IMG/VR virus record: IMGVR_UViG_3300025137_000110 | Location: 1 to 37,225 of that record | Reading direction: 5' to 3' (one strand) | Length of the DNA stretch: 37,225 nucleotides | DNA from: a virus | Part shown: positions 3,146 to 37,225 of the stretch, piece after piece | Layout of the letters: each line of letters starts with the position of its first letter | How positions within the stretch are numbered: the first letter of the stretch is position 1 | Translations under genes and position numbers: made by a program | Notes under the pieces: generated by a model | Told to the model about the DNA's origin: nothing | The model's database searches: none | Seen by the model: the letters and a program-made list of their open reading frames with translations, nothing else

Positions 3146-3201
3146 ATGTTACAGTGTAACAAATGATACTTGCATAATCCTTTGAAGTATGGGATTCTAG
3201 A

Positions 3202-3223
3202 GGAGTCAAAGGAAAGCATCATG
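3202..3223 (+). repeat. shared leader/RBS repeat TCAAAGGAAAGCATCATG, copy 2
   Basis: Identical over 22 bases to 2875-2896, again ending in the start codon. Its presence decides the start of the gene at 3221 rather than an upstream TTG at 3170. Confidence 0.8.
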
Positions 3224-4948: not shown

Positions 4949-5009
4949 GTTAGATAGCAGAGGGACAGTGAGTAACACACAGTCTCCATGATTGTCCCCC
5001 CTATCTAAC
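4949..5009. repeat. long hairpin just after the ORF at 4656
   Basis: GTTAGATAG (4949-4957) pairs perfectly with CTATCTAAC (5001-5009), and inside it GGGACA (4962-4967) pairs with TGTCCC (4993-4998). It begins six bases after the stop codon. There is no downstream T-tract, so it may be an mRNA-end structure instead of a standard terminator. Confidence 0.7.
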
Positions 5010-5054
5010 ACCTACTCCACACACCGTGAATAACACTTAGAGACAGTTATTATG

Positions 5055-5076
5055 CCCCTTATGTTATGTAAAGGGG
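5055..5076. repeat. hairpin CCCCTT/AAGGGG
   Basis: CCCCTT (5055-5060) and AAGGGG (5071-5076) flank a ten-base loop; the right arm continues into a G7 run and GGGCCC. It is the second of three hairpins in the convergent intergenic stretch 4944-5244, where no gene was found. Confidence 0.55.
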
Positions 5077-5196
5077 GGGCCCGTTGCTAAAAAAGTACCT
5101 TCTTTCTAACCTACAAACGTTTCCAAACGACCTCTAGAAGGTGAATCCATTTATTTTTTCAGATACCCAGAACGCCGTATAGAAAAAATTCCGAGG

Positions 5197-5227
5197 AAAA
5201 AAAATCCCCCTGTAGGTTTCGAGGGGG
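5197..5227 (-). terminator. intrinsic terminator of the minus-strand operon
   Basis: Read on the minus strand: CCCCCT, a ten-base loop, AGGGGG, then one A and eight T. The stem occupies 5206-5211 and 5222-5227 and the T-tract 5197-5204. It lies 18 bases beyond the stop of the SGNH-like gene, at the right place to end the minus-strand unit. Confidence 0.85.
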
Positions 5228-5244
5228 TAGAAGTGTTCAACTAT

Positions 5245-6036
5245 CTAATTATAGCAAGGGTTTAGAGATTTGTCAATTTCTTGATGTAGGAGGTCAGCGA
5301 AGAAGGAATGAGATTGCCGAGTGGGATGAAAGGAGTGTGGGTTTATATGTTTATGTTGTTCTAGGTATTGGATACGGCGGGAGTCGGTCTTTTGATATTG
5401 GGAGACGTGGTAAGTATCGTTAGTGGGAGTGTAACCGTGATGGGTAGATAGGATGGAACAGAGGTCCCTGTGAGGGCGATCAGAGAATAGGAGACGGGGG
5501 ATATGAGTGGGGTATATGTGATGATTGAAGAGATCTACCCAGTAGTTTTGGATACCGAGTGCATCAAAGTAAGTATTCCAATGAAGCATTTGACTGGAAA
5601 GTTCTTTGAGGACTACGGAGTGATTGTAGTGTAGGAGGAGGTGAGTTTTGGAATCAAAGTTATTTTTACGTTGTTGGTTATCTGCGGAATACCCATGACC
5701 CCATACTCTACTTACGTAGGAGTTACGAGAATTGTAGTATATTTCATCACGAGCGGTAGAAGTTATACCCCAGAGGACGATGGAGTCTTTCGAGGGGGGA
5801 GAAGTGTTGAAGAACTCAGTAGCCAAGCGGAATTGTTTTTGGTTACTTGAACCATTGATTGAGAAATTTATGTTGGTTTTATTGAGTTTCTCTGAGAGTA
5901 GGTGACGGTATGAGTATTTTGTGAAGTATTCAGAGTGTCTTTGGGTATTGAATTGTTCTCTAGGTTGTCCAGGGGTGTAGCAGAGACCATGCCCCCACAT
6001 CCAGGAGCAACCGAAGGTAACTAAGGATGAATCCAT
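5245..6036 (-). CDS. SGNH/GDSL hydrolase-like protein, copy 1
   Basis: The 263-aa product opens with VTFGCSWMWGHG, which fits SGNH block I (G9-x-S11, candidate nucleophile Ser11), followed by NGSSN (61-65), resembling block II. The C-terminal HINPHSFHPTRQSH (230-243) resembles block V, with His237 in HPT as a candidate catalytic base. The usual GxND of block III is not evident; instead there is WGITSTARDE (89-98). SGNH proteins hydrolyse or transfer acyl esters, often on glycans, but catalysis here is unproven. The gene overlaps the upstream sulfotransferase by 16 bases and is the last gene before the terminator. It aligns along its whole length by eye with the protein at 7686-8504. The product is unusually His-rich. 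Confidence 0.65.
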   Translation of the reverse strand: MDSSLVTFGCSWMWGHGLCYTPGQPREQFNTQRHSEYFTKYSYRHLLSEKLNKTNINFSINGSSNQKQFRLATEFFNTSPPSKDSIVLWGITSTARDEIYYNSRNSYVSRVWGHGYSADNQQRKNNFDSKTHLLLHYNHSVVLKELSSQMLHWNTYFDALGIQNYWVDLFNHHIYPTHIPRLLFSDRPHRDLCSILSTHHGYTPTNDTYHVSQYQKTDSRRIQYLEQHKHINPHSFHPTRQSHSFFADLLHQEIDKSLNPCYN

Positions 6037-7013
6037 GATGTAGGGAGGTCACCGAATGTTTCTTTCCAGTCTTGGTAGACAGGTGCAAGGATATGCTTTG
6101 CTTTGTTGATAATATCTAAGGTTAGTGGATCGGTATCGGAGGACCATTGATCCTGTAGGTAAGGGTATTTGGGAGCATTGATACCTTTATCAGGGTAGTA
6201 AGCGTTTTGGTGGAGTGTATGTAGTGGAAACTCTAAGAAGTCTGAGAGATTTTGTAAGGATGATGTTGAGGGATTCCAGAGGTCTTCCATGATAATAGCA
6301 TGAACCCTCTCTGGGAAAGCGGTGGACCAAGTTTTGAATAGTTTAGCGTATGCTGTATGTTCATCAATGCCTTTAGTTAGTAGGGCATGAGTGGTATCTT
6401 TGAAGTATTTCTTAGGTGTTCTATCGAGATCAGACATCCAAGCACCGCGACGGTTGAAACCCTCTCTTTGAGATGAAAGTTCAAATGCTTGCAGATCATT
6501 GATCAGGTAATTGATATGAGACCAAAGGCGTTTGATAGGGTCTCTGAAGATCATGATGACTTTGATGTCAAAGTAATGATCTAAGGATGGTTTGATATGT
6601 TGTAAGAAAGGTAATTGAAGGGATGCATTAGAGTTATTGAAATCTACTACAGAATGATAATGTGGTTTTATATTGTTGTATTGTTTTTGATGATAGGATA
6701 TGTATTTTTCTATAGTAAATGGTGGGGACATAAAGTCCTTTTCGGATTGAATATCAACTGTACCTAGGAGGGGGTTATTAGAAACCAGTGTAGGTAGTTT
6801 AGCATTAGATGGATTATCTAAGTTATGATGATAACGTTTTAGTGCAGATTCTTGATTATTACGACCTTGCATGAAAGTAAGGTAACCATGCTGTTGTGCC
6901 CTCCAAGAGTGGCAATAATGGTTATCATGAGATAGTGTGTATAATAAAGGTGTGGTGGCAGAATGTGGAGTGCCGACACCAAATAACAAAGGGATTTTAT
7001 GCATCACCACCAT
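6021..7013 (-). CDS. PAPS-dependent sulfotransferase-like protein, copy 1
   Basis: About 330 aa. The N-terminal PLLFGVGTPHSATTPLLYTL matches the 5'-phosphosulfate loop of sulfotransferases in position and shape, and VIMIFRDPIKRLWS (about 142-155) is a clear 3'-phosphate-binding motif (RDPxxRxxS). Such enzymes move sulfate from PAPS to hydroxyl or amino groups of sugars, lipids or proteins. The middle (PPFTIEKYISYH...VVDFNNSN) and the C-terminus (NAPKYPYLQDQW) are shared with the copies at 8615 and 9785. The loop has His where many family members have Arg or Lys. ATG 7013 overlaps the previous stop (TGATG); a second ATG at 7004 is possible. The acceptor is unknown. Confidence 0.8.
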   Translation of the reverse strand: MVVMHKIPLLFGVGTPHSATTPLLYTLSHDNHYCHSWRAQQHGYLTFMQGRNNQESALKRYHHNLDNPSNAKLPTLVSNNPLLGTVDIQSEKDFMSPPFTIEKYISYHQKQYNNIKPHYHSVVDFNNSNASLQLPFLQHIKPSLDHYFDIKVIMIFRDPIKRLWSHINYLINDLQAFELSSQREGFNRRGAWMSDLDRTPKKYFKDTTHALLTKGIDEHTAYAKLFKTWSTAFPERVHAIIMEDLWNPSTSSLQNLSDFLEFPLHTLHQNAYYPDKGINAPKYPYLQDQWSSDTDPLTLDIINKAKHILAPVYQDWKETFGDLPTSWIHP

Positions 7014-7282
7014 CAAAGGTCACCGAATTTATCTCTCATATCTTCACGTTGGTTCTTGAGGGATGTGAAGGCACCGTCTATGAAACCACGACGATATTCC
7101 CAGGTATCACCACCAGTTTTACCTCTAGAAGGGTTGATGCATAGTGAGGAATCTGGATCATCTTTTCTAAGGTTATTGCATACTAAACCAGCAAGATCGA
7201 GATCTTTACCGGGTTTGCCGGTGCCTTGCCAATAGAGTACTCCTTCCATCCAGGTAGCACCACACTTCTCACATTTCTTCAT
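7013..7282 (-). CDS. conserved 89-aa Cys-rich cyanophage protein
   Basis: Starts MKKCEKCGATWMEGVLYWQG and continues to DLAGLVCNN and SSLCINPSRG. The CxxC pair at residues 4-7 and later Cys residues (34 and 48) suggest a small zinc-binding fold. I recognise the CEKCGATW...DLAGLVCN pattern from hypothetical proteins of T4-like cyanophages. The stop shares its last base with the ATG of sulfotransferase copy 1, so the two are probably translated together. It separates the two sulfotransferase/SGNH pairs along with the DUF3310 gene. The role is unknown; zinc binding is inferred. Confidence 0.7.
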   Translation of the reverse strand: MKKCEKCGATWMEGVLYWQGTGKPGKDLDLAGLVCNNLRKDDPDSSLCINPSRGKTGGDTWEYRRGFIDGAFTSLKNQREDMRDKFGDL

Positions 7283-7324
7283 GGGGAGAACAGTAGTAAT
7301 TGATCAAATTATTTAGAGTATAGT

Positions 7325-7555
7325 TTAGCGATTTCTTTCTTGAGATGCGAGTAATAATGCCTTTTCAATATAAACCTGTGCTTTACGGAGATCGTGTAAG
7401 TAATCTTCATGAGGTTTATGACCAGCACGACAGACATACTTTACGACATTACCACAGAAGAAGTCTAAGTTTTGATCAGCAATAAAATCCCATACTTGAA
7501 TAGATCCTTGTTGATAGTGTGCAGGACTGTATTTACTCTCTGTGTTTTCAGACAT
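7325..7555 (-). CDS. DUF3310 family protein
   Basis: The 76-aa product contains HYQQGSIQVWDFIADQNLDF and GNVVKYVCRAGHKP, then EDYLHDLRKAQVYIEKAL. This is the DUF3310 signature (HY..G.I...DFI.DQ.LDF..GN..KY..RAG.K....DL.KA..Y). The family is widespread in phages and is sometimes labelled a nucleotide kinase; I see no P-loop here and would not assign that activity. It is the first gene behind a sigma70-like promoter within the minus-strand operon, with a short leader and no clear Shine-Dalgarno. It is unrelated by sequence to the sulfotransferase and SGNH genes on both sides. Confidence 0.9.
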   Translation of the reverse strand: MSENTESKYSPAHYQQGSIQVWDFIADQNLDFFCGNVVKYVCRAGHKPHEDYLHDLRKAQVYIEKALLLASQERNR

Positions 7556-7576
7556 GGATATCAGTGACGTGATACA

Positions 7577-7606
7577 ATCATAGCATCGACGCTACATGTT
7601 TGTCAA
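7577..7606 (-). promoter_or_regulatory. sigma70-type promoter inside the minus-strand operon
   Basis: On the minus strand: TTGACA (7606-7601), 18 bases, TATGAT (7582-7577). The expected start is near 7570, about 14 bases before the DUF3310 ATG. A perfect -35 and a 5/6 -10 make this the best host-type promoter in the window. It would drive DUF3310, the Cys-rich gene and sulfotransferase/SGNH copy 1 independently of copy 2. Confidence 0.75.
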
Positions 7607-7685
7607 GGAGGTTAGCGATTACTATTGGAGCACCGGAAACCTCTGCCGTCATTTGTGGCGGATGCCCCTCAGGTCAAAGTACTGT

Positions 7686-8504
7686 TTACATCTTTGCTTT
7701 TATTGCAGCGTCCATCCAATCTGCAATCTTTGCTTGAGATGCTGCGGTGGGTAGAATAGCGTGAGGGTTGACTGCCTTCTTCTCTACCAAATACTTTGTC
7801 CGCTTACAATCTTGATGATTGGACTGACCGGAGGCATCAGTATCCTCTTCAGGAGTCCAACCTGCATCTACAGCAAGCATGGTCAGCAAAGAACGATCGT
7901 CCTTATCAGTAAACAGATAGTTGTCAGGTACCGTGGTGTACTTGGTCTGGTTGAGTTCATCATACCAGAAGACCTTATAACCAAGGTTAGTCAGATAACG
8001 ATTCCAGTGGGCAATGTTATATGACAACTGTTCAAGTTCATTCGCTTCACTATAGTGATTCTTGACATACTTGAACATGTCAAAATCTTTAGTCTTCAAC
8101 TTATTAGCATTGTTACCATATCCGTTAGCATACAGAACACCAACATATCCTTTGCCAGAGGCATTGAAACCCATTGAGTCATCGTTCATGTAAATTTCAT
8201 GACGGGCAAGGTGAGGAACACCCACCAAAACAATAGTCTCAGCAGCATCAGTGCCGTCAAGAACTTCCGTCATCTGACGGAAGTTTCTCATATTGCTGGA
8301 ACCAACACGAGCATATGTAGTCAGTTCCCAACCATTTTTCTCGGCAAGGAGGTTCTTCCAAGTTAGGGGGTTGTTTTTATCCTTATCGTAAGTAGTTTCA
8401 CCTGCAATACAGCATGCGGTCTTATATTCTGCCAACGTCATACCATCAATGTAACCCGCCCCTGTTCCTTGGGTCCAAGAAGATCCAAACGTAAGGAGTT
8501 TCAT
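7686..8504 (-). CDS. SGNH/GDSL hydrolase-like protein, copy 2
   Basis: The 272-aa product starts MKLLTFGSSWTQGTGAGYID; GSSW places a Ser (residue 9) where SGNH block I has its nucleophile, and ARVGSSN (65-71) fits block II. VLVGVPHLARHEIY (92-105) aligns with copy 1 in the region of block III, without the usual Asn. The C-terminal VNPHAILPTAAS (245-256) aligns with the HPT segment of copy 1, but Leu251 stands where copy 1 has His237. Either His248 serves as base or this copy is not a classical hydrolase. It follows sulfotransferase copy 2 by 110 bases and is separated from DUF3310 by a 130-base gap holding a promoter. Confidence 0.65.
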   Translation of the reverse strand: MKLLTFGSSWTQGTGAGYIDGMTLAEYKTACCIAGETTYDKDKNNPLTWKNLLAEKNGWELTTYARVGSSNMRNFRQMTEVLDGTDAAETIVLVGVPHLARHEIYMNDDSMGFNASGKGYVGVLYANGYGNNANKLKTKDFDMFKYVKNHYSEANELEQLSYNIAHWNRYLTNLGYKVFWYDELNQTKYTTVPDNYLFTDKDDRSLLTMLAVDAGWTPEEDTDASGQSNHQDCKRTKYLVEKKAVNPHAILPTAASQAKIADWMDAAIKAKM

Positions 8505-8553
8505 TTATACTTCGTGCGATGGTATAGTAAGCATGATCTTCCATGCCCTCTGG

Positions 8554-8560
8554 TATTTAT
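8554..8560 (-). promoter_or_regulatory. possible T4-type late promoter before SGNH copy 2
   Basis: ATAAATA on the minus strand in GATAAATACC, about 50 bases before the ATG at 8504 and inside the 110-base gap after sulfotransferase copy 2. The position is suitable; the core is short and could be chance. Confidence 0.4.
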
Positions 8561-8614
8561 CAGAGACTAATTTCCTAATCATCAGCAATGACATCAAGGT
8601 CGTTTGGTATGCGA

Positions 8615-9601
8615 CTACTTCTTCCATGAATTTGGGATATAACCGAAAGTGCTGTAAAAATCAACATAGTATCTAGACATACTATGAAGTGCTCGTTGAT
8701 ATTCTTCGTCATTCAATTCTTGAATATCGCTTCCCCACTGATCTTGAAGAAATTCATACTGTGGAGCATTCTTTCCCATAAACGGAACATAGGCATTTTC
8801 ATGAATTTTTTCAACTTTATATGACAAAAAATCTGATAATTGTTGTAATTGATTTTTTTCTTGTTTTTTATCCCAAAAATCTTCCATTATAACAGTATAA
8901 ACGTTTTCTTTACCAAAAACATCTGCGTATTTGGCATAACCTCCCAGGTAATCTGAATTAGGTGAGTACCAACCTTGCGAAAGATAGTAAAAAAACAGTT
9001 TTGTGTGCTTTTTTTGCCGAATTAGCGACTGGACTTTGAAATCGTTGTGATTTCTTGATCCAAAATCAATAGTTTTGGCAAAAAGACTTCCAATTTCCGA
9101 ATAATAACGTCTTACTGGGTCCCGAAATTCCATCAAAACCTTGACATTGAAGTGATCAAGTATTTTTGGTGCAATTTGTTTCAAAAATCCATAATCCAAA
9201 CCCCAATTTCCGTTACAAAAATCACAAACGGCGGCATAATCACCTTTTATGTTGTCCCAGTGCGTCAAATAGTACTCAATGTAGTCATCAATTTTGATTT
9301 TTTTCCGAAAAAAGATGTCTATCGGGGTGTCCTTGGCAATGTCGTTGCGAGATGATAGAATTTTACCCCAAGGATGGTCATATGGGCGTTTACCAATTGA
9401 TCCTTCCATTGCACGAGAGTTTGCTTTCTTGAAAACCTCATTGAAATAGTCATCATTCTTCTGTAGTTTCACCAAAAACCAATTTTCTTTATAATGTCCC
9501 TGATGAGCGTACTTATTATCCAACGCAAGAGTGTAAAACATGGGTGTGGTTGCCGACCACCCAGTGCCAGGGTTGATTAGTAGTGTTGGTTTCGTAATCA
9601 T
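8615..9601 (-). CDS. PAPS-dependent sulfotransferase-like protein, copy 2
   Basis: 328 aa starting MITKPTLLINPGTGWSATTP; GTGWSATT (12-19) corresponds to the PAPS 5'-phosphosulfate loop and VLMEFRDPVRRYYS (155-168) to the 3'-phosphate motif. KIDDYIEYYLTHWDNIK and AVCDFCNGNWG in the middle and NAPQYEFLQDQWGSD near the end are shared with the other two copies, showing a common origin. The product is Lys- and aromatic-rich, and the DNA is visibly richer in A/T runs than copy 1. It is the first gene of the minus-strand unit and is divergent from the + strand unit, with only 28 bases between the start codons. Substrate unknown. Confidence 0.82.
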   Translation of the reverse strand: MITKPTLLINPGTGWSATTPMFYTLALDNKYAHQGHYKENWFLVKLQKNDDYFNEVFKKANSRAMEGSIGKRPYDHPWGKILSSRNDIAKDTPIDIFFRKKIKIDDYIEYYLTHWDNIKGDYAAVCDFCNGNWGLDYGFLKQIAPKILDHFNVKVLMEFRDPVRRYYSEIGSLFAKTIDFGSRNHNDFKVQSLIRQKKHTKLFFYYLSQGWYSPNSDYLGGYAKYADVFGKENVYTVIMEDFWDKKQEKNQLQQLSDFLSYKVEKIHENAYVPFMGKNAPQYEFLQDQWGSDIQELNDEEYQRALHSMSRYYVDFYSTFGYIPNSWKK

Positions 9602-9629
9602 ATATATTATACGAAATACGAGGTAAAGT

Positions 9630-9788
9630 ATGCCGTATGATATCTATCTAGACAAAAAAATTATCTTCAAAGAATTGACAAAAGAACAAGCAGAAGACAT
9701 TCAAGTTACAATGCAACAAATGATTATGGCGGGGATAAAAACTGACTACACAAGGGAACAAATTAGAATTGAACTTTCTAAACCATGA
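9630..9788 (+). CDS. hypothetical 52-aa protein
   Basis: ATG behind GAGGTAAAGT, a plausible ribosome-binding site, and an ATGA overlap with the sulfotransferase that follows. The product MPYDIYLDKKIIFKELTKEQ, then a helix, ends REQIRIELSKP. Its outline (YDIY..K....LT.E.AE followed by a helix and I.IE) resembles the 54-aa protein at 13062, so the two may be paralogues bracketing the + strand part of the island. No function known. Confidence 0.6.
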   Translation: MPYDIYLDKKIIFKELTKEQAEDIQVTMQQMIMAGIKTDYTREQIRIELSKP

Positions 9789-10678
9789 AACCCACCCTAT
9801 TTTTGAATGTTGGTACTGGATGGTCTGGTACAACTCCTTTATATTACACTTTAGGTTGGTATAACAAGTATTGTCATGCAGGACATCGGAAAGAGAAGGG
9901 ATATTTGTGGTTGATAAACTTAGCAGAAGAAAAAAAGACGTTTGAACGGGTTAGATTCTACAAAGAATTTTTTGGACCATCAAAAAAGTCAACATCAACG
10001 AGAAAACCGAAAATATTCACTCACGAGTCCCCTCATGTTGCAGGAAAGTGGACTGAGGAAGAAGTAAAGTATTTTTGGTCTCCTCCATTTACGCTAGACA
10101 AGTATATTGAGTATTATGAAAAGCATTGGGACAATATCAAAGATGAGTATAAGGCAGTAGCAGATTTTAGTAACCCAAATGGTTATTGTGATGAAAATTT
10201 TGTCATGTCGATTGCTCCTGATCTAAAAAAACACTTTGACGTAAAAATTAGCATTGTTTTCCGAGATCCGATTCGTAGATTGTGGTCTATGCGTCAAAAA
10301 CAAAATCCTCGTGACCCAGTTCGCCATTTTATGAAATCTGGTGTTGATTTTGGGTATACAGAAATGTTTTTGAAGTGGGCAATGGCATTTGGATCAGAAA
10401 ATTGTCATATTACAATTATGGAAGATTTTTGGAATGGAGAAACTCAATCATTGTCAGATTTTATCGGATATGAAATCAAGGACGTTCATAAAAACGCATA
10501 TGTGCCGGATTTAGGTCCAGCAGCACCCCACATACAGTATTTGAACGATCAGTGGGAATCTGACGTAATGCATATGCCAAAAGAGACGATGGAGTATGCA
10601 AAAGAAATGTGTGCACCAATATATGAAAATTTCAAGATGTATTTCGGTTATTTGCCACAAAGGTGGGAAGTAATCTAG
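9785..10678 (+). CDS. PAPS-dependent sulfotransferase-like protein, copy 3
   Basis: 297 aa starting MKPTLFLNVGTGWSGTTPLY. GTGWSGTT (10-17) is the closest of the three copies to the family consensus for the 5'-phosphosulfate loop, and SIVFRDPIRRLWS (146-158) is a clean 3'-phosphate motif. SPPFTLDKYIEYYEKHWDNI (99-118) and AAPHIQYLNDQWESD match the other copies. It is shorter in the region between the loop and SPPFT and after the RDP motif. It is coupled by ATGA to the small ORF upstream and followed by the carbamoyltransferase unit, so it belongs to the + strand part of the tailoring island. Acceptor unknown. Confidence 0.83.
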   Translation: MKPTLFLNVGTGWSGTTPLYYTLGWYNKYCHAGHRKEKGYLWLINLAEEKKTFERVRFYKEFFGPSKKSTSTRKPKIFTHESPHVAGKWTEEEVKYFWSPPFTLDKYIEYYEKHWDNIKDEYKAVADFSNPNGYCDENFVMSIAPDLKKHFDVKISIVFRDPIRRLWSMRQKQNPRDPVRHFMKSGVDFGYTEMFLKWAMAFGSENCHITIMEDFWNGETQSLSDFIGYEIKDVHKNAYVPDLGPAAPHIQYLNDQWESDVMHMPKETMEYAKEMCAPIYENFKMYFGYLPQRWEVI

Positions 10679-10705
10679 CATACATATAAAACACTATTCA
10701 TCCCT

Positions 10706-10825
10706 ATGTTCAATCCGTTTTCTTGGTTACTTACACAGTGGCGGTTACGTCAAATTCGCAGAATGGACCCGTTCGTTTACGAAGATGATGATGATATGGA
10801 TGAGGAACTTCCCCCGGACTTATGA
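10706..10825 (+). CDS. 39-aa ORF coupled to the carbamoyltransferase
   Basis: ATG 10706 opens a frame whose TGA overlaps the carbamoyltransferase ATG (ATGA at 10822-10825). The product MFNPFSWLLTQWRLRQIRRM is amphipathic and basic, followed by a very acidic tail (DPFVYEDDDDMDEELPPDL). Short proteins with a MFN-type N-terminus and an acidic DDD tail seem familiar from cyanophages. It could be a real peptide or a coupling leader. Confidence 0.5.
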   Translation: MFNPFSWLLTQWRLRQIRRMDPFVYEDDDDMDEELPPDL

Positions 10826-12207
10826 TTGGGTTTTCTGAAGGTTTTCATGACTCAGCAGTTGCAGTAGTTCATGAAGATAGAATTATCTTTGCCACACATG
10901 GCGAAAGATATTCAAAGAAGAAACATGACAAAAAATTATGTGATGAAGCTGCATTTATGGCAGAGGCACTGAATACTTATGATAGTGTCTACGCTTTTTA
11001 TGAAAAATGGTTTCCGAAGCGTGCAAGACAATTTTTTGCAGGTCAGAGACATTGGAATAAACCTAGAGACTTGAGATTTCGTCCTACAGTAGATTTCAAC
11101 CATCATTTGTCTCATGCTGCCGCTGCCTTCCAAACTTCTGTGTTTGATCAGTCATCATGCGTTGTGGTAGACAGTATTGGTGAGTGGGACTGTAGTTCTG
11201 TCTGGGTTGCTAATATGATTGACGGAAGAGCAAAATATACAAAAGTTTGGTCTCAGAAATATCCAAAATCGATTGGTCTTTGGTATTCTGCTCTAACAAA
11301 GTATGCAGGTCTTCGTCCTTTGGATGAAGAGTATATTTTTATGGGTATGGCAGCATTTGGAGAAAATAATCATGAGCATGAACTTAGAAAACTTCTAACT
11401 CGCAATAATCATCGTGGGGTCAATATTGACTTCACAAATTCAACTTTTGACTTAGCAAAGAGTGCACAAGTTGTTTTAGAACAAGAACTATCTAAAATTT
11501 TCAAAATAGCACTTGAGTACAGTAATAACGTTTGTTATGGTGGTGGAGTTGCTCTAAACTGTGTTGCTAATACCAAATTACGGGAAATATGTAATTTATG
11601 GATTATGCCTAACCCAGGAGACGCTGGAGCAGCATTAGGTGCTGCATTGTTGGTATCTGGTAAGAAAGTGCAGTGGACGCCTTACTGTGGGCATAATATT
11701 GACCGTAAGGTTGATCCTAAAGAAGTTGTTGAATGTTTACTTGAAAATGGGGTTGTAGGTATTGCAAATGGGAAGGCAGAGTATGGTCCCCGTGCTTTAG
11801 GTAATAGATCACTTTTGGCGGACCCTAGGAAAGTTGAAAACAAAGAAATAGTAAATCGTATCAAAAAACGTCAACAATTCCGACCTTTTGCTCCGGCAAT
11901 CCTAGAGGAGTATTGTCAAGATTATTTTGACATGAAGCATTCCCACTCTAGGTATATGTCATATGTCTATCAGTGTCTGCGTTCTGAGGAGATTCCTGCT
12001 GCTGTACACGTCGATAATAGTGCAAGAGTACAAACAGTGCCTGAGACTTCTGATAGCATTCTAAGACCAATATTGGAAGAGTGGTATCGTGTTACCGATT
12101 GTCCTGTACTATTGAATACTTCATTGAACATAAAAGGGAAACCAATGGTCAATGATTGGGGTGATGCACTGGATTTCAAAGAAAAATATAACGTAAAAGT
12201 GTTCTAG
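10822..12207 (+). CDS. NodU/CmcH/TobZ-type O-carbamoyltransferase
   Basis: 461 aa. The N-terminal Kae1-like part has SEGFHDSAVAVV, GERYSKKKHD (27-36) and the metal-binding-like HHLSHAAAAF (94-103), then GGGVALNCVAN (about 240-250) and NPGDAGAALGAAL. The C-terminal YrdC-like part shows AEYGPRALGNRSLLADPR (about 319-336), FRPFAPAI and LLNTSLNIKGKP (about 430-441). These enzymes use ATP and carbamoyl phosphate to make a carbamoyl-adenylate and transfer the carbamoyl group to a hydroxyl, classically on a sugar or antibiotic; from memory, one phage branch modifies 5-hydroxymethylcytosine. The protein is shorter than NodU-type relatives of about 550 aa. All core motifs are present, so activity is likely; the acceptor is unknown. 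Neighbours favour a glycan. Confidence 0.9.
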   Translation: MIGFSEGFHDSAVAVVHEDRIIFATHGERYSKKKHDKKLCDEAAFMAEALNTYDSVYAFYEKWFPKRARQFFAGQRHWNKPRDLRFRPTVDFNHHLSHAAAAFQTSVFDQSSCVVVDSIGEWDCSSVWVANMIDGRAKYTKVWSQKYPKSIGLWYSALTKYAGLRPLDEEYIFMGMAAFGENNHEHELRKLLTRNNHRGVNIDFTNSTFDLAKSAQVVLEQELSKIFKIALEYSNNVCYGGGVALNCVANTKLREICNLWIMPNPGDAGAALGAALLVSGKKVQWTPYCGHNIDRKVDPKEVVECLLENGVVGIANGKAEYGPRALGNRSLLADPRKVENKEIVNRIKKRQQFRPFAPAILEEYCQDYFDMKHSHSRYMSYVYQCLRSEEIPAAVHVDNSARVQTVPETSDSILRPILEEWYRVTDCPVLLNTSLNIKGKPMVNDWGDALDFKEKYNVKVF

Positions 12208-12227
12208 ATGTTCTAACCTATATAACG

Positions 12228-12236
12228 TGGTATAAT
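12228..12236 (+). promoter_or_regulatory. extended -10 promoter before the glycosyltransferase
   Basis: TGGTATAAT: a perfect TATAAT (12231-12236) with TG one base upstream, the extended -10 form that tolerates a weak -35. No good -35 is visible. The start would be near 12243, short of the ATG at 12260. Confidence 0.5.
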
Positions 12237-12259
12237 TGATTTGACACTGATTTTATTTC

Positions 12260-13027
12260 ATGGCTAAAGGATTCCGGGTGGTAACGACTCCACCTGAAAG
12301 CGAAGACGCAAAACAAAAGTCAGAAGAGTTTAGTATTGATGCTGCTCGCGAATTAGTAAAAGGAAAAACATTCGTTTTTTGTCTTCCTGGACGTACAGTT
12401 TCATATATCTATCTAAAGAATTTTGTACAACTCGCTTTTGAGATTGTGCAACGTGGAGGTTCTTTGCAAATCTCCCAAGATTATTCTTCAATGGTCAACT
12501 TTGCCCGTTGTAAGTGTTTGGGTGCAAATGTACTACAAGGTCCTGATCAAGAACCTTGGCAAGGTAATCTAAAGTATGATTATCAATTGTGGATTGATAG
12601 TGATATTGTTTTTGGTTTAGAGCAGTTCTATCGCCTCCTCTGGATGGACAAAGATATTGCTGGTGGATGGTATGTAACTGAAGATGGTCAAACAACATCT
12701 GTTGCACATTGGTTAGAAGAGGAAGATTTCAAAAATAATGGTGGTGTGATGAACCATGAGATGGTTGATGGTATCCAAAAGCGTCGTAAACCATTCACTG
12801 TAGACTATACCGGTTTCGGTTGGTTATTGATCAAGCATGGTGTGTTTGAGAATGAGAAGATCAAGTATCCTTGGTTTGCACCACAGATGCAAGTTTTTGA
12901 ATCTGGTGAAGTACAAGATATGTGTGGTGAAGACGTATCATTCTGTCTTGAGGCACAGAAAGCAGGTTTTGAAATTTGGTGTGATCCCAAATGTCGAGTT
13001 GGACATGAGAAGACTCGAATTCTTTGA
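12260..13027 (+). CDS. GT-A-like glycosyltransferase
   Basis: 255 aa. After a polar N-terminus, VFCLPGRTVSYIYLKNF (39-55) starts the nucleotide-sugar-binding part. YDYQLWIDSDIVF contains a DxD-type motif (Asp113-Ser-Asp115) that normally binds the divalent metal and sugar nucleotide. CGEDVSFCLEAQKAGF (222-237) and the final His (CRVGHEK, His249) fit the acceptor-side acidic residue and metal-binding His of GT-A enzymes. There is no signal peptide or membrane segment, so it acts in the cytoplasm. A protein of this type often lies just upstream of gp25 in T4-like cyanophages, from memory. Sugar donor and acceptor are unknown. It may prepare the sugars that the sulfo- and carbamoyltransferases decorate, which is inference. 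Confidence 0.75.
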   Translation: MAKGFRVVTTPPESEDAKQKSEEFSIDAARELVKGKTFVFCLPGRTVSYIYLKNFVQLAFEIVQRGGSLQISQDYSSMVNFARCKCLGANVLQGPDQEPWQGNLKYDYQLWIDSDIVFGLEQFYRLLWMDKDIAGGWYVTEDGQTTSVAHWLEEEDFKNNGGVMNHEMVDGIQKRRKPFTVDYTGFGWLLIKHGVFENEKIKYPWFAPQMQVFESGEVQDMCGEDVSFCLEAQKAGFEIWCDPKCRVGHEKTRIL

Positions 13028-13061
13028 TTTGTATATATAATGTATTGTTGCCATAATACAT

Positions 13062-13226
13062 ATGGATCTTTACGATATCTGGGTATGTGGTAATAAAGTA
13101 CATTCTTGTATAAGTGAAGAAGAGATGGAGGAATACTCCCAAAATTTTGCTGACGAATACTACAAAAATGGTCACCCTCATCCAGCGGATGTAGAAATTT
13201 GTTACTTAGGGCATGAGGAGGTCTAA
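13062..13226 (+). CDS. hypothetical 54-aa protein
   Basis: The product MDLYDIWVCGNKVHSCISEE is followed by an acidic helix and GHPHPADVEICYLGHEEV. It resembles small cyanophage proteins with an N-terminal strand pair, one helix and a final strand, and loosely the 52-aa protein at 9630. A TATAAT lies at 13036-13041 upstream, without a clear -35. The last codons overlap the left arm of the terminator at 13216, so coding sequence and transcription stop share bases. Confidence 0.6.
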   Translation: MDLYDIWVCGNKVHSCISEEEMEEYSQNFADEYYKNGHPHPADVEICYLGHEEV

Positions 13227-13242
13227 AGGGACCTCCTTTTTT
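13216..13242 (+). terminator. intrinsic terminator before the baseplate operon
   Basis: GGAGGTC (13217-13223), six-base loop, GACCTCC (13230-13236), then six T (13237-13242). It is a textbook stem and T-run that insulates the late baseplate genes from the tailoring island upstream. Confidence 0.9.
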
Positions 13243-13256
13243 GTGCCTCTAAATAG

Positions 13257-13263
13257 ATAAATA
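13257..13263 (+). promoter_or_regulatory. T4-type late promoter before gp25
   Basis: ATAAATA in GATAAATAT, 20 bases before the gp25 start and directly after the terminator. Position and core agree with T4-like late promoters (TATAAATA) used by the phage sigma factor gp55. Confidence 0.7.
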
Positions 13264-13283
13264 TACGAGATAATAGGGTCACT

Positions 13284-13688
13284 GTGCCTATTCAGAGAAC
13301 CTCGGAAGGTTTCAGGGATATTTCGTTATCCATGAAACTACATCCTGTCACTAAAGACATAATCCCTCTGAAGAACGAAGATGCTATCAAGCGTTCCGTT
13401 CAAAATTTGGTTCGTATACAATTAGGTGAAGTATTTTTCAATACACTTCTAGGAACAAGAATTACTGGTTCATTATTTGAACTTGCAAATGATGACTATA
13501 TTGATCCTATCCGAGGAGAGATTGAGACTACCATAACTAACTTTGAACCTAGGGTTGACCTAACAGACATTCAAGTTGTTAGCAGACCTGACGATAATGC
13601 ACTTGCGGTGACTATTAGTTACGACATTGTGGGACTGACTAGACCTACTCAGTCAGTATCATTCATACTTGAACCTACTAGGCTATAA
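13284..13688 (+). CDS. 25: baseplate wedge protein gp25
   Basis: 134 aa (T4 gp25 is 132), GPW/gp25 family. The start is GTG: the N-terminus PIQRTSEGFRDISLSMKLHP with the following VTKDIIPL matches what I recall of cyanophage gp25, so the later ATG at 13332 would truncate the protein. The core IKRSVQNLVRIQLGEVFFNT and LLGTRITGSLFELA is typical. gp25 sits at the centre of the baseplate wedge next to the tail tube and sheath and helps start sheath assembly. The stop overlaps the gp6 ATG by one base (TAATG). Good late-promoter context. Confidence 0.93.
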   Translation: MPIQRTSEGFRDISLSMKLHPVTKDIIPLKNEDAIKRSVQNLVRIQLGEVFFNTLLGTRITGSLFELANDDYIDPIRGEIETTITNFEPRVDLTDIQVVSRPDDNALAVTISYDIVGLTRPTQSVSFILEPTRL

Positions 13689-36593: not shown

Positions 36594-37225
36594 ATGACTG
36601 CTCCTGTCTTACAGTTCAAGCGCGGTAACTTCTCAGCACTTCCAGGTCTTCAAGCAGGTGAACCAGGATGGGTTGTAGACGAGTTTGACCTATTTGTAGG
36701 TATTGATTCTACATCAAACAATAATAAGATTGTTGGATCTGCTCGTTACTGGGAAAGAGAAACATCAACATCTGGATCTGCTGTTCGCCTTGTAGAAGGT
36801 GTAAACAATGGAGACCATTATGTTGCCCTCAAGTCACCAGCAGCACTAACTTCTAGTCAGGATTATATCCTTCCCGCGGCTGCTGTAGCAGGCGGATACA
36901 TGAAGGTAGACGGATCAGGCAATATGTCCTGGTCTACAGAAGTTGATATTACTACTCCTCTCTCGGTGTTGGACATCGACGGTGGTACTGATATTGGTGC
37001 TGACTTAGTAGACGGCGATCTCCTCATCGTTGATGATGGTGGTGGTGGAACGAACCGTAAGACAGCAATGTCTCGTATCAAGACTTATGTTCTTGGCGGC
37101 GGTGCTGGTGCTAGTTTTGCTGCTATCAATGTTACGGGTATTTCTACCAATACCTTCTTGAAGTCCACCACCGCTACTGTGGGTGCTGGTCTGACTGTTA
37201 CGGGTATTGTTGATGGCAACGGTGG
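36594..37225 (+). CDS. tail fibre-like structural protein, 3' end cut by window edge
   Basis: ATG 36594; the frame is open to the end (210 codons visible). The N-terminus MTAPVLQFKRGNFSALPGLQ, then AGEPGWVVDEFDLFVGID, has the LQ.KRG...LP.L..GEPGW..D...L.VG pattern of trimerising N-terminal domains in phage fibres. The later Gly/Thr-rich part (VLGGGAGASFAAINVTGIST, FLKSTTATVGAGLTV) looks like repeated beta-helical shaft units. It is probably an adsorption fibre, with the receptor-binding tip outside the window. Confidence 0.7.
   Translation, partial: MTAPVLQFKRGNFSALPGLQAGEPGWVVDEFDLFVGIDSTSNNNKIVGSARYWERETSTSGSAVRLVEGVNNGDHYVALKSPAALTSSQDYILPAAAVAGGYMKVDGSGNMSWSTEVDITTPLSVLDIDGGTDIGADLVDGDLLIVDDGGGGTNRKTAMSRIKTYVLGGGAGASFAAINVTGISTNTFLKSTTATVGAGLTVTGIVDGNG

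Follow-up and report, generated by a model that had tools for sequence, protein, structure and literature searches.

Why would a phage carry two pairs of sulfotransferase and SGNH genes on the same strand, and on what might their products act? We addressed this question in a single virus record of 37,225 bases (IMGVR_UViG_3300025137_000110; hereafter the window, meaning that whole stretch), for which an original prediction had described, in transcription order on the minus strand, a sulfotransferase (ST), an SGNH-like protein, a DUF3310 protein, a Cys-rich protein and then a second ST and SGNH-like protein. All six open reading frames (ORFs) lie where and as described, namely ST_A (8615-9601, 328 aa), SGNH_A (7686-8504, 272 aa), the DUF3310 protein (7325-7555; Pfam E=3.9e-13), the Cys-rich protein (7013-7282; phrog_484, E=4e-31), ST_B (6021-7016, 331 aa, TTG start) and SGNH_B (5245-6036, 263 aa), and every motif named for the ST and SGNH proteins is present. 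Because of the fold class of these proteins, their neighbours and their position, we tentatively read the locus as part of a glycan-tailoring island whose likeliest acceptor would be a glycan of the phage's own fibre or baseplate, with a host surface glycan second.

The two copies of each gene had been assigned to the same two families, and protein alignments support this: ST_A and ST_B share 32% identity (160 bits, E=2e-51), SGNH_A and SGNH_B share 31% over 271 columns, end to end (135 bits, E=3e-43), and ST_A is also related to a third sulfotransferase-like protein, ST_C (9785-10678, plus strand, 297 aa), encoded divergently to it (35%, 189 bits, E=5e-63). Given these E-values, the likeness of the copies is not a matter of chance. 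We then built trees from ST proteins of at least 230 aa and SGNH proteins of at least 170 aa, taking one protein per 85% cluster, and found that ST_A, ST_B and ST_C occupy three separate supported clades in a quick tree assessed by SH-aLRT only. SGNH_A and SGNH_B fall together in one 12-row clade (SH-aLRT 93) with the SGNH proteins that trail ST_A-type genes, but each sits on a long branch and is unusual in composition, which leaves its exact place in the tree unsure.

The original prediction had offered either an old duplication or two separate gains, and for pair B the evidence favours a separate gain. The nearest relative, locus L009, is 95% identical across window 7685-13300, and in a BLAST comparison window 7013-7623 and 4997-5276 abut there with 4 nt in common. 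The segment missing from L009, module B (5277-7012, minus strand), is a clean 1.7-kb insertion beside the Cys-rich gene, which forms one border of a cargo slot. A recent tandem duplication is ruled out by the separate ST clades together with this empty pair-B site. A homologue of ST_B at L023:10678-11664 (77% identity) is likewise followed by an SGNH_B orthologue with the identical 16-nt overlap seen between ST_B and SGNH_B, and a distant 369-aa ST sits in the slot of module B in L008 and L012. At the junction 7624-7685, L009, L008 and L006 carry extra SGNH genes that the window does not have, and window 7650-7686 is a 37-nt match to a piece of one of the extra genes in L009. The coding strand of module B is also G-poor and C-rich, with a skew of -0.31 to -0.42 in the window, L023 and L020 compared to -0.13 to +0.23 for the other genes measured; the G-avoiding stretches span window 5277-7012, L023:10678-12419 and L020:9770-10534.

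To place the pairs in a wider context, we used the two SGNH proteins and the three STs as queries against IMG/VR and obtained 56 loci with the former and 54 with the latter; several are near copies and the counts are not independent. An SGNH gene was found within the fetched flanks of 44 of the 54 ST-found loci, in agreement with the predicted neighbourhood association beyond this genome. Across 60 ST contigs, the recurrent neighbours were a carbamoyltransferase (48), SGNH (48), a glycosyltransferase (GT)-like protein (41), gp25 (37) and gp6 (26), and a single contig held up to eight ST genes (its nine match rows include pieces of one gene). On eight contigs longer than 46 kb, 27 of 30 SGNH matches lay within 5 kb of an ST (27 of 31 with contig G004), compared to a mean of 7.0 (sd 3.7) under block rotation, and none of 20,000 rotations reached the observed value; at 1.5 kb the figure was 17 of 30 against 3.3 (P 0.0002). 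This test used eight records above 46 kb out of 22, with G004 standing outside it and examined afterwards, and the long contigs were found via these same genes, some of them being closely related.

The predicted structure of ST_A (65 alignment rows, predicted local distance difference test (pLDDT) score 93) returned sulfotransferases for all of its best 50 rows by Z. Heparan-sulfate 3-OST-3 and NDST1 both scored Z 17.0 (root-mean-square deviation 3.5-3.6 over 231-236 residues) and the bacterial structure 3rnl 16.8, compared to 11.9 for a tyrosylprotein ST and about 11 for cytosolic STs. A search of the Protein Data Bank (PDB) with the ST profile gave, at E<=0.01, 3rnl (1e-7) and heparan-sulfate 3-O-sulfotransferases (0.002-0.006), and ST_B and ST_C would share the fold by homology to the ST_A model. 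In Pfam, Sulfotransfer_3 scored 26.6 bits on ST_B, under the cut-off of 27, a Pfam scan of ST_A and ST_C gave no sulfotransferase match, and among 67 ST relatives Sulfotransfer_3 was found in five and Sulfotransfer_1 in four (E<=0.01). The phage proteins resemble the heparan-sulfate 3-OSTs, NDST and 3rnl in fold, in weak profile similarity, in the 3'-phosphate motif and in a Lys-Glu motif, but share only 10-17% identity with them and differ in being phage-borne, in occurring as multi-gene arrays and in having an aromatic residue in the 5'-sulfate loop.

Inspection of the active site in 72 non-redundant phage STs revealed a conserved 3'-phosphate site, with Arg in 72/72 and Ser in 71/72. The Lys-Glu motif, which we take to bear the catalytic base of heparan-sulfate 3-OSTs, is shared with cyanobacterial relatives and retains its Glu in 66/72, including ST_A (Lys38-Glu39). 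The loop that would contact the 5'-sulfate of 3'-phosphoadenosine-5'-phosphosulfate (PAPS), termed PSB, holds Lys in eight and Arg in two of ten relatives from cyanobacterial genomes, and at this position ST_A has Trp15 and ST_B has His18; in ST_B, the conserved Glu is in addition replaced by Gln42. Since the basic loop residue is missing, we classify the phage proteins as sulfotransferase-fold proteins and infer their activity. The ratio of nonsynonymous to synonymous substitution (dN/dS) was 0.07-0.47 in 34 comparisons across five ST and SGNH genes, indicating purifying selection, with 0.13 for ST_B (one comparison) and 0.16-0.34 for SGNH_A (ten comparisons), which suggests that even the altered proteins are in use. 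Two ST matches contain one in-frame stop each (G008:C1:31488-32321 and G001:C1:74343-75209), and some ST paralogues may therefore be decaying.

When 300 genomes from the Synechococcus WH7803 family were screened with profile A3, which comprises 67 of the 72 ST rows (L008:9802, L033:437, L108:4295, L108:5137 and L109:6004 were left out), 36 proved to contain distant ST relatives; the profile found none in five picked genomes that included WH7803. The host ST alignment was drawn from 10 of 12 loci, leaving out L212, a near copy of L211, and L213, which has an odd frame. A check for cellular origin with A2 in genome contigs found no relatives among 108 stretches.

The SGNH_A model (52 rows, pLDDT 89) resembles TesA (Z 15.1), a CE2 esterase (Z 14.6) and an uncharacterised viral protein (TM 0.80), and a PDB search with the SGNH sequence profile found no credible relative. 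Lipase_GDSL matched six and DUF6071 eight of 52 SGNH relatives (E<=0.1); alignment A4 likewise holds 52 rows, from the long clade only. Both window proteins have the Ser of block I, the Gly of block II and the Asn of block III (Ser9 and Asn71 in SGNH_A, Ser11 and Asn65 in SGNH_B), and of the rows with a residue at the position concerned in a 141-row family alignment, 94% have the Ser, 99% the Asn and 87% the block V His. SGNH_B has this His (His237), whereas SGNH_A has Leu251 in its place and is therefore better described as an SGNH-fold protein than as a typical hydrolase. While TesA and the CE2 carbohydrate esterases share the fold and the Ser/Gly/Asn blocks, the phage SGNH proteins do not have the Asp three residues before the His (the SGNH_B motif reads NPHSFHPT). 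Ser-His dyad enzymes exist, CE2 among them. Scoring successive SGNH copies by His (H) or Leu (L) gives L-H-L-H in L064 and L066 and L-H-H in L009; the window has one Leu and one His copy, in different pairs. The SGNH profile, run without a positive control, had no match in 339 cyanobacterial genomes.

As one partner in each window pair is without a conserved active-site residue, neither is a textbook enzyme pair. The original prediction had envisaged sulfation of a hydroxyl freed by the SGNH partner, and with one active-site loss per pair this cannot be read from the genes. The loss of the SGNH_A His lay beyond that prediction, as did a small ORF inside pair A. The 110 nt that separate ST_A from SGNH_A contain a 40-aa ORF (8505-8627, minus strand); its start overlaps the last 13 nt of ST_A, and its stop is immediately adjacent to the start of SGNH_A. 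Among 28 loci with an ST-SGNH gap of 70-110 nt, 20 were examined and all 20 encode a 37-45-aa ORF with the same start place and the typical sequence ME.I..YQ.T.MT..M..KL..DKY.R. Its dN was below dS in seven of eight comparisons, that is, in all that differ, and a PHROG search with it gave no match. Pair A is thus an ST-microprotein-SGNH unit, and an RNA structure in the gap was dropped as an explanation, the gap being a conserved ORF.

Beyond ST_A, the island continues on the plus strand with a 52-aa ORF (9630-9788, family F6; weak phrog_2626 match, E=0.004) that is conserved in many relatives and overlaps the start of ST_C (CCATGA), a Nol/NodU-like carbamoyltransferase (10822-12207) and the GT-like protein (12260-13027), which matches phrog_1574, a PHROG of unknown function, and more weakly glycosyltransferase PHROGs. 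The GT-like gene is conserved in cultured cyanophages and was found in 103 phage records, of which 95 have Synechococcus, Prochlorococcus or cyanophage in their names, and a megablast match to S-B43/S-B05 is located within it (window 12692-13017) and not in an SGNH gene. A gp25-like baseplate wedge protein (13284-13688) forms a conserved border of the island, and from 13284 onward the plus-strand genes have matches in families of baseplate wedge proteins, gp25 and gp6 among them.

The window ends inside a giant, repeat-rich, fibre-like gene (36594-37223, plus strand) that is cut off by the contig end, and further ST or SGNH genes may lie beyond. A PHROG search with its product gave no match, the name resting on its repeats and place as judged by eye, and a small gene upstream of it matches a tail-fibre assembly PHROG. 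In G001, G003 and G005, further STs are encoded two to four genes downstream of the fibre-like gene and upstream of the neck genes, all on one strand; the neck genes of G001 match head-tail adaptor and head closure PHROGs. This placement of STs within the structural gene run favours action at virion assembly. In the single-cell virus AG-345-D19, an ST also follows the fibre-like homologue, with three genes between.

AG-345-D19 provides the best match to the window's gp6 (61%), its contigs also encode three STs, two SGNH proteins and a carbamoyltransferase, and it was the sole match when four STs were compared to a phage collection by tblastn. A 192-kb relative contig carries two Photo_RC genes, psbA- and psbD-like, and a cyanobacterial host is therefore likely. 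The carriers are uncultured T4-like marine phages, probably cyanophages.

Some relatives encode further enzymes. L091, L093, L094, L099, L103-L106, L079 and L082 contain genes for 2-oxoglutarate (2OG)-Fe(II) oxygenase, HpcH/HpaI aldolase and radical SAM proteins along with unassigned genes, a hint that the tailoring pathway extends further. In AG-345-D19 (L002:5907-8737), the genes after one ST encode a cytidylyltransferase (Pfam CTP_transf_3) and SIS-like and HAD-like proteins, the last two assigned by eye, a gene set that suggests synthesis of cytidine monophosphate (CMP)-sugars in the phage.

In the glycan-tailoring mechanism we propose, STs of heparan-sulfate (polysaccharide) type would move sulfate from PAPS to glycan hydroxyls, and SGNH proteins would strip O-acyl groups from that glycan or relocate them. 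The PAPS would come from the host; a search of five contigs, themselves fragments, found no APS kinase or PAPS reductase. A His-less SGNH copy such as SGNH_A may be the binding subunit or partner of a His-bearing copy such as SGNH_B; the carbamoyltransferase would attach carbamoyl groups and the GT-like protein a sugar. Exchange of paralogues or modules such as ST_B-SGNH_B at the cargo slot would then alter the pattern of tags. Of this picture, the data show the homology, the folds, the neighbourhood of the genes, the insertion and the purifying selection, while the use of PAPS, the acyl chemistry, the acceptor and the role in the phage are inferred.

Several observations weigh against this reading. 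The PAPS loop of the 72 phage STs holds Trp in 48, Phe in 12, His in eight and Tyr in four, and with an aromatic for a basic residue canonical catalysis is not assured; the ST_B clade is in addition without the conserved Glu (Gln in three of four rows, Ser in one), and the block V position is Leu in 9/9 SGNH_A orthologues, the window's included. Ranked by Foldseek E-value, the ST_A model matches 3rnl first, then tyrosylprotein STs, closely followed by heparan-sulfate enzymes. A scan of window proteins revealed no pathway for building sugars. Behind the fibre-like gene of the close relative G002 stand an SGNH gene and genes for two unrelated P-loop-like proteins and no ST, and on the 246-kb contig G004 a single SGNH match stands without any ST. 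The pairing itself is looser than the fixed arrangement originally proposed: an ST was found in 24 of the 56 SGNH-found loci and none in the flanks, some of them short, of the other 32, L020 encodes SGNH_B without ST_B, and SGNH is the direct neighbour of 49 of the 139 STs for which both neighbours are visible.

The same facts are also compatible with an acceptor on the host surface. The enzymes may alter a host glycan such as a lipopolysaccharide (LPS) or exopolysaccharide precursor, with a receptor change that blocks superinfection or re-adsorption of progeny, an alternative that we regard as somewhat unlikely. It would draw on an identical enzyme set and heparan-sulfate-type fold, the 36 host-family genomes with distant ST relatives are consistent with it, and PMC4390846 reports that LPS is a receptor for some cyanophages and that sulfate is common on cyanobacterial polysaccharides. 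The position of the island beside baseplate genes and the three contigs with STs in the fibre-to-neck run argue instead for the phage's own glycan. A more elaborate form of the own-glycan reading is unlikely, in our estimate. Here the locus would be a heparan-sulfate-like writing system of cyanophages. Arrays of polysaccharide-type STs whose PAPS loop has been re-engineered, with an aromatic residue for Lys, would work alongside SGNH proteins, both live and His-less, and a microprotein that couples them; together they would decorate the phage's own tail-fibre glycans with sulfate, acyl and carbamoyl in swappable combinations and thereby tune adsorption.

Given the altered active sites, the array could instead be mostly non-catalytic, its members acting as pseudoenzyme scaffolds that bind glycans or one another. 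The missing basic PSB residue in 72/72 phage STs, the Glu-less ST_B clade, the consistent loss of His among SGNH_A orthologues and the alternation of His-less and His-bearing copies in L064 and L066 all point this way, but the Glu kept in most STs, the preserved 3'-phosphate site and the His in 87% of SGNH rows make it distinctly unlikely. It is also improbable that the site upstream of gp25 is a hotspot gathering unrelated cargo with no functional coupling. The cargo slot is clear, its contents vary among relatives, and upstream of gp25 the cultured phage S-B43 (L001, 2482-5649) has annotated genes for a dTDP-glucose dehydratase, epimerases and a TagD-like protein, with no annotated ST. Against a mere hotspot, the same few families recur as contents, the ST_A-microprotein-SGNH order holds in 20/20 loci, and SGNH and ST genes cluster above the rotation expectation.

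Hypermodification of DNA bases, with sulfate, carbamoyl and sugar placed on modified phage bases, appears very improbable. No gene of the thymidylate-synthase family, which includes base hydroxymethylases, was found in the five contigs, compared to 9 of 14 positive control genomes, and the heparan-sulfate-type fold and the position beside baseplate genes also speak against it. A Tet/JBP search had no match anywhere and was uninformative. In favour of base modification, some arrays include 2OG oxygenases and radical SAM proteins, and PMC10829341, citing Iyer et al. 2013, mentions ST- and glycosyltransferase-based nucleotide modification in phages. Least probable of all is a role in auxiliary sulfur metabolism or small-molecule sulfation, under which phage STs have been catalogued in PMC12285232 and PMC13079714, as no PAPS-making or PAPS-reducing gene was found in the five contigs and small-molecule STs are more distant in structure (Z about 11 compared to 17).

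The original prediction had also held that no phage system of this kind was described. Phage STs as such are published: PMC10580990 describes Sulfotransfer_3-like STs in marine phages (OM43 phages and Synechococcus phage S-SRM01), resembling the genes studied here in this respect, mentions them in two viral genomes and calls their function unclear, and PMC10829341 ties phage STs to nucleotide or protein modification. Searches of the open-access literature found no description of this ST-SGNH island. PMC3037559 reports LPS gene clusters in cyanophages S-SSM7 and P-SSM2 and a Nol-like carbamoyltransferase in S-SSM5 and P-RSM4, five genes from a tail fibre gene; the string 'sulfotransf' was not found in its main text, and the S-SSM5 and P-RSM4 stretches shown have no annotated sulfotransferase.

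If the enzymes are active, uncultured ocean phages would be sulfate-tagging a glycan with up to eight ST genes per contig, a scale that searches of the open-access literature found in no paper. This would tie unexplained STs of marine viromes to adsorption and not to sulfur metabolism, and it would offer proteins for testing in an ST subfamily without the basic PAPS-loop residue, His-less SGNH proteins under selection and a PHROG-less microprotein of 37-45 aa.

Three minor observations concern other parts of these genomes. The F46 proteins near the fibre-like gene, which carry the P-loop-like motif TGPQGSGNH (by eye), were considered as STs and rejected at a profile comparison probability of 2.3%. 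They adjoin the fibre-like gene on the strand opposite to the structural genes (L112:6141-6776, L112:11191-11871, L114:8413-9820, L215:13086-13835 and L215:14603-15313), and one member each scanned against Pfam and PHROG gave no match. A scan for the late promoter TATAAATA found two occurrences against 2.4 expected, none at ST genes, and 17 of TAAATA against 34, and was uninformative on expression timing. Finally, small genes of the window's left arm (451-490, 1013-1060, 2837-2890 and 3170-3220) have, by eye, similar leaders that read YCxNSSNQxxIM and ESKESIM in translation and may be copies of one ribosome-binding or regulatory element.

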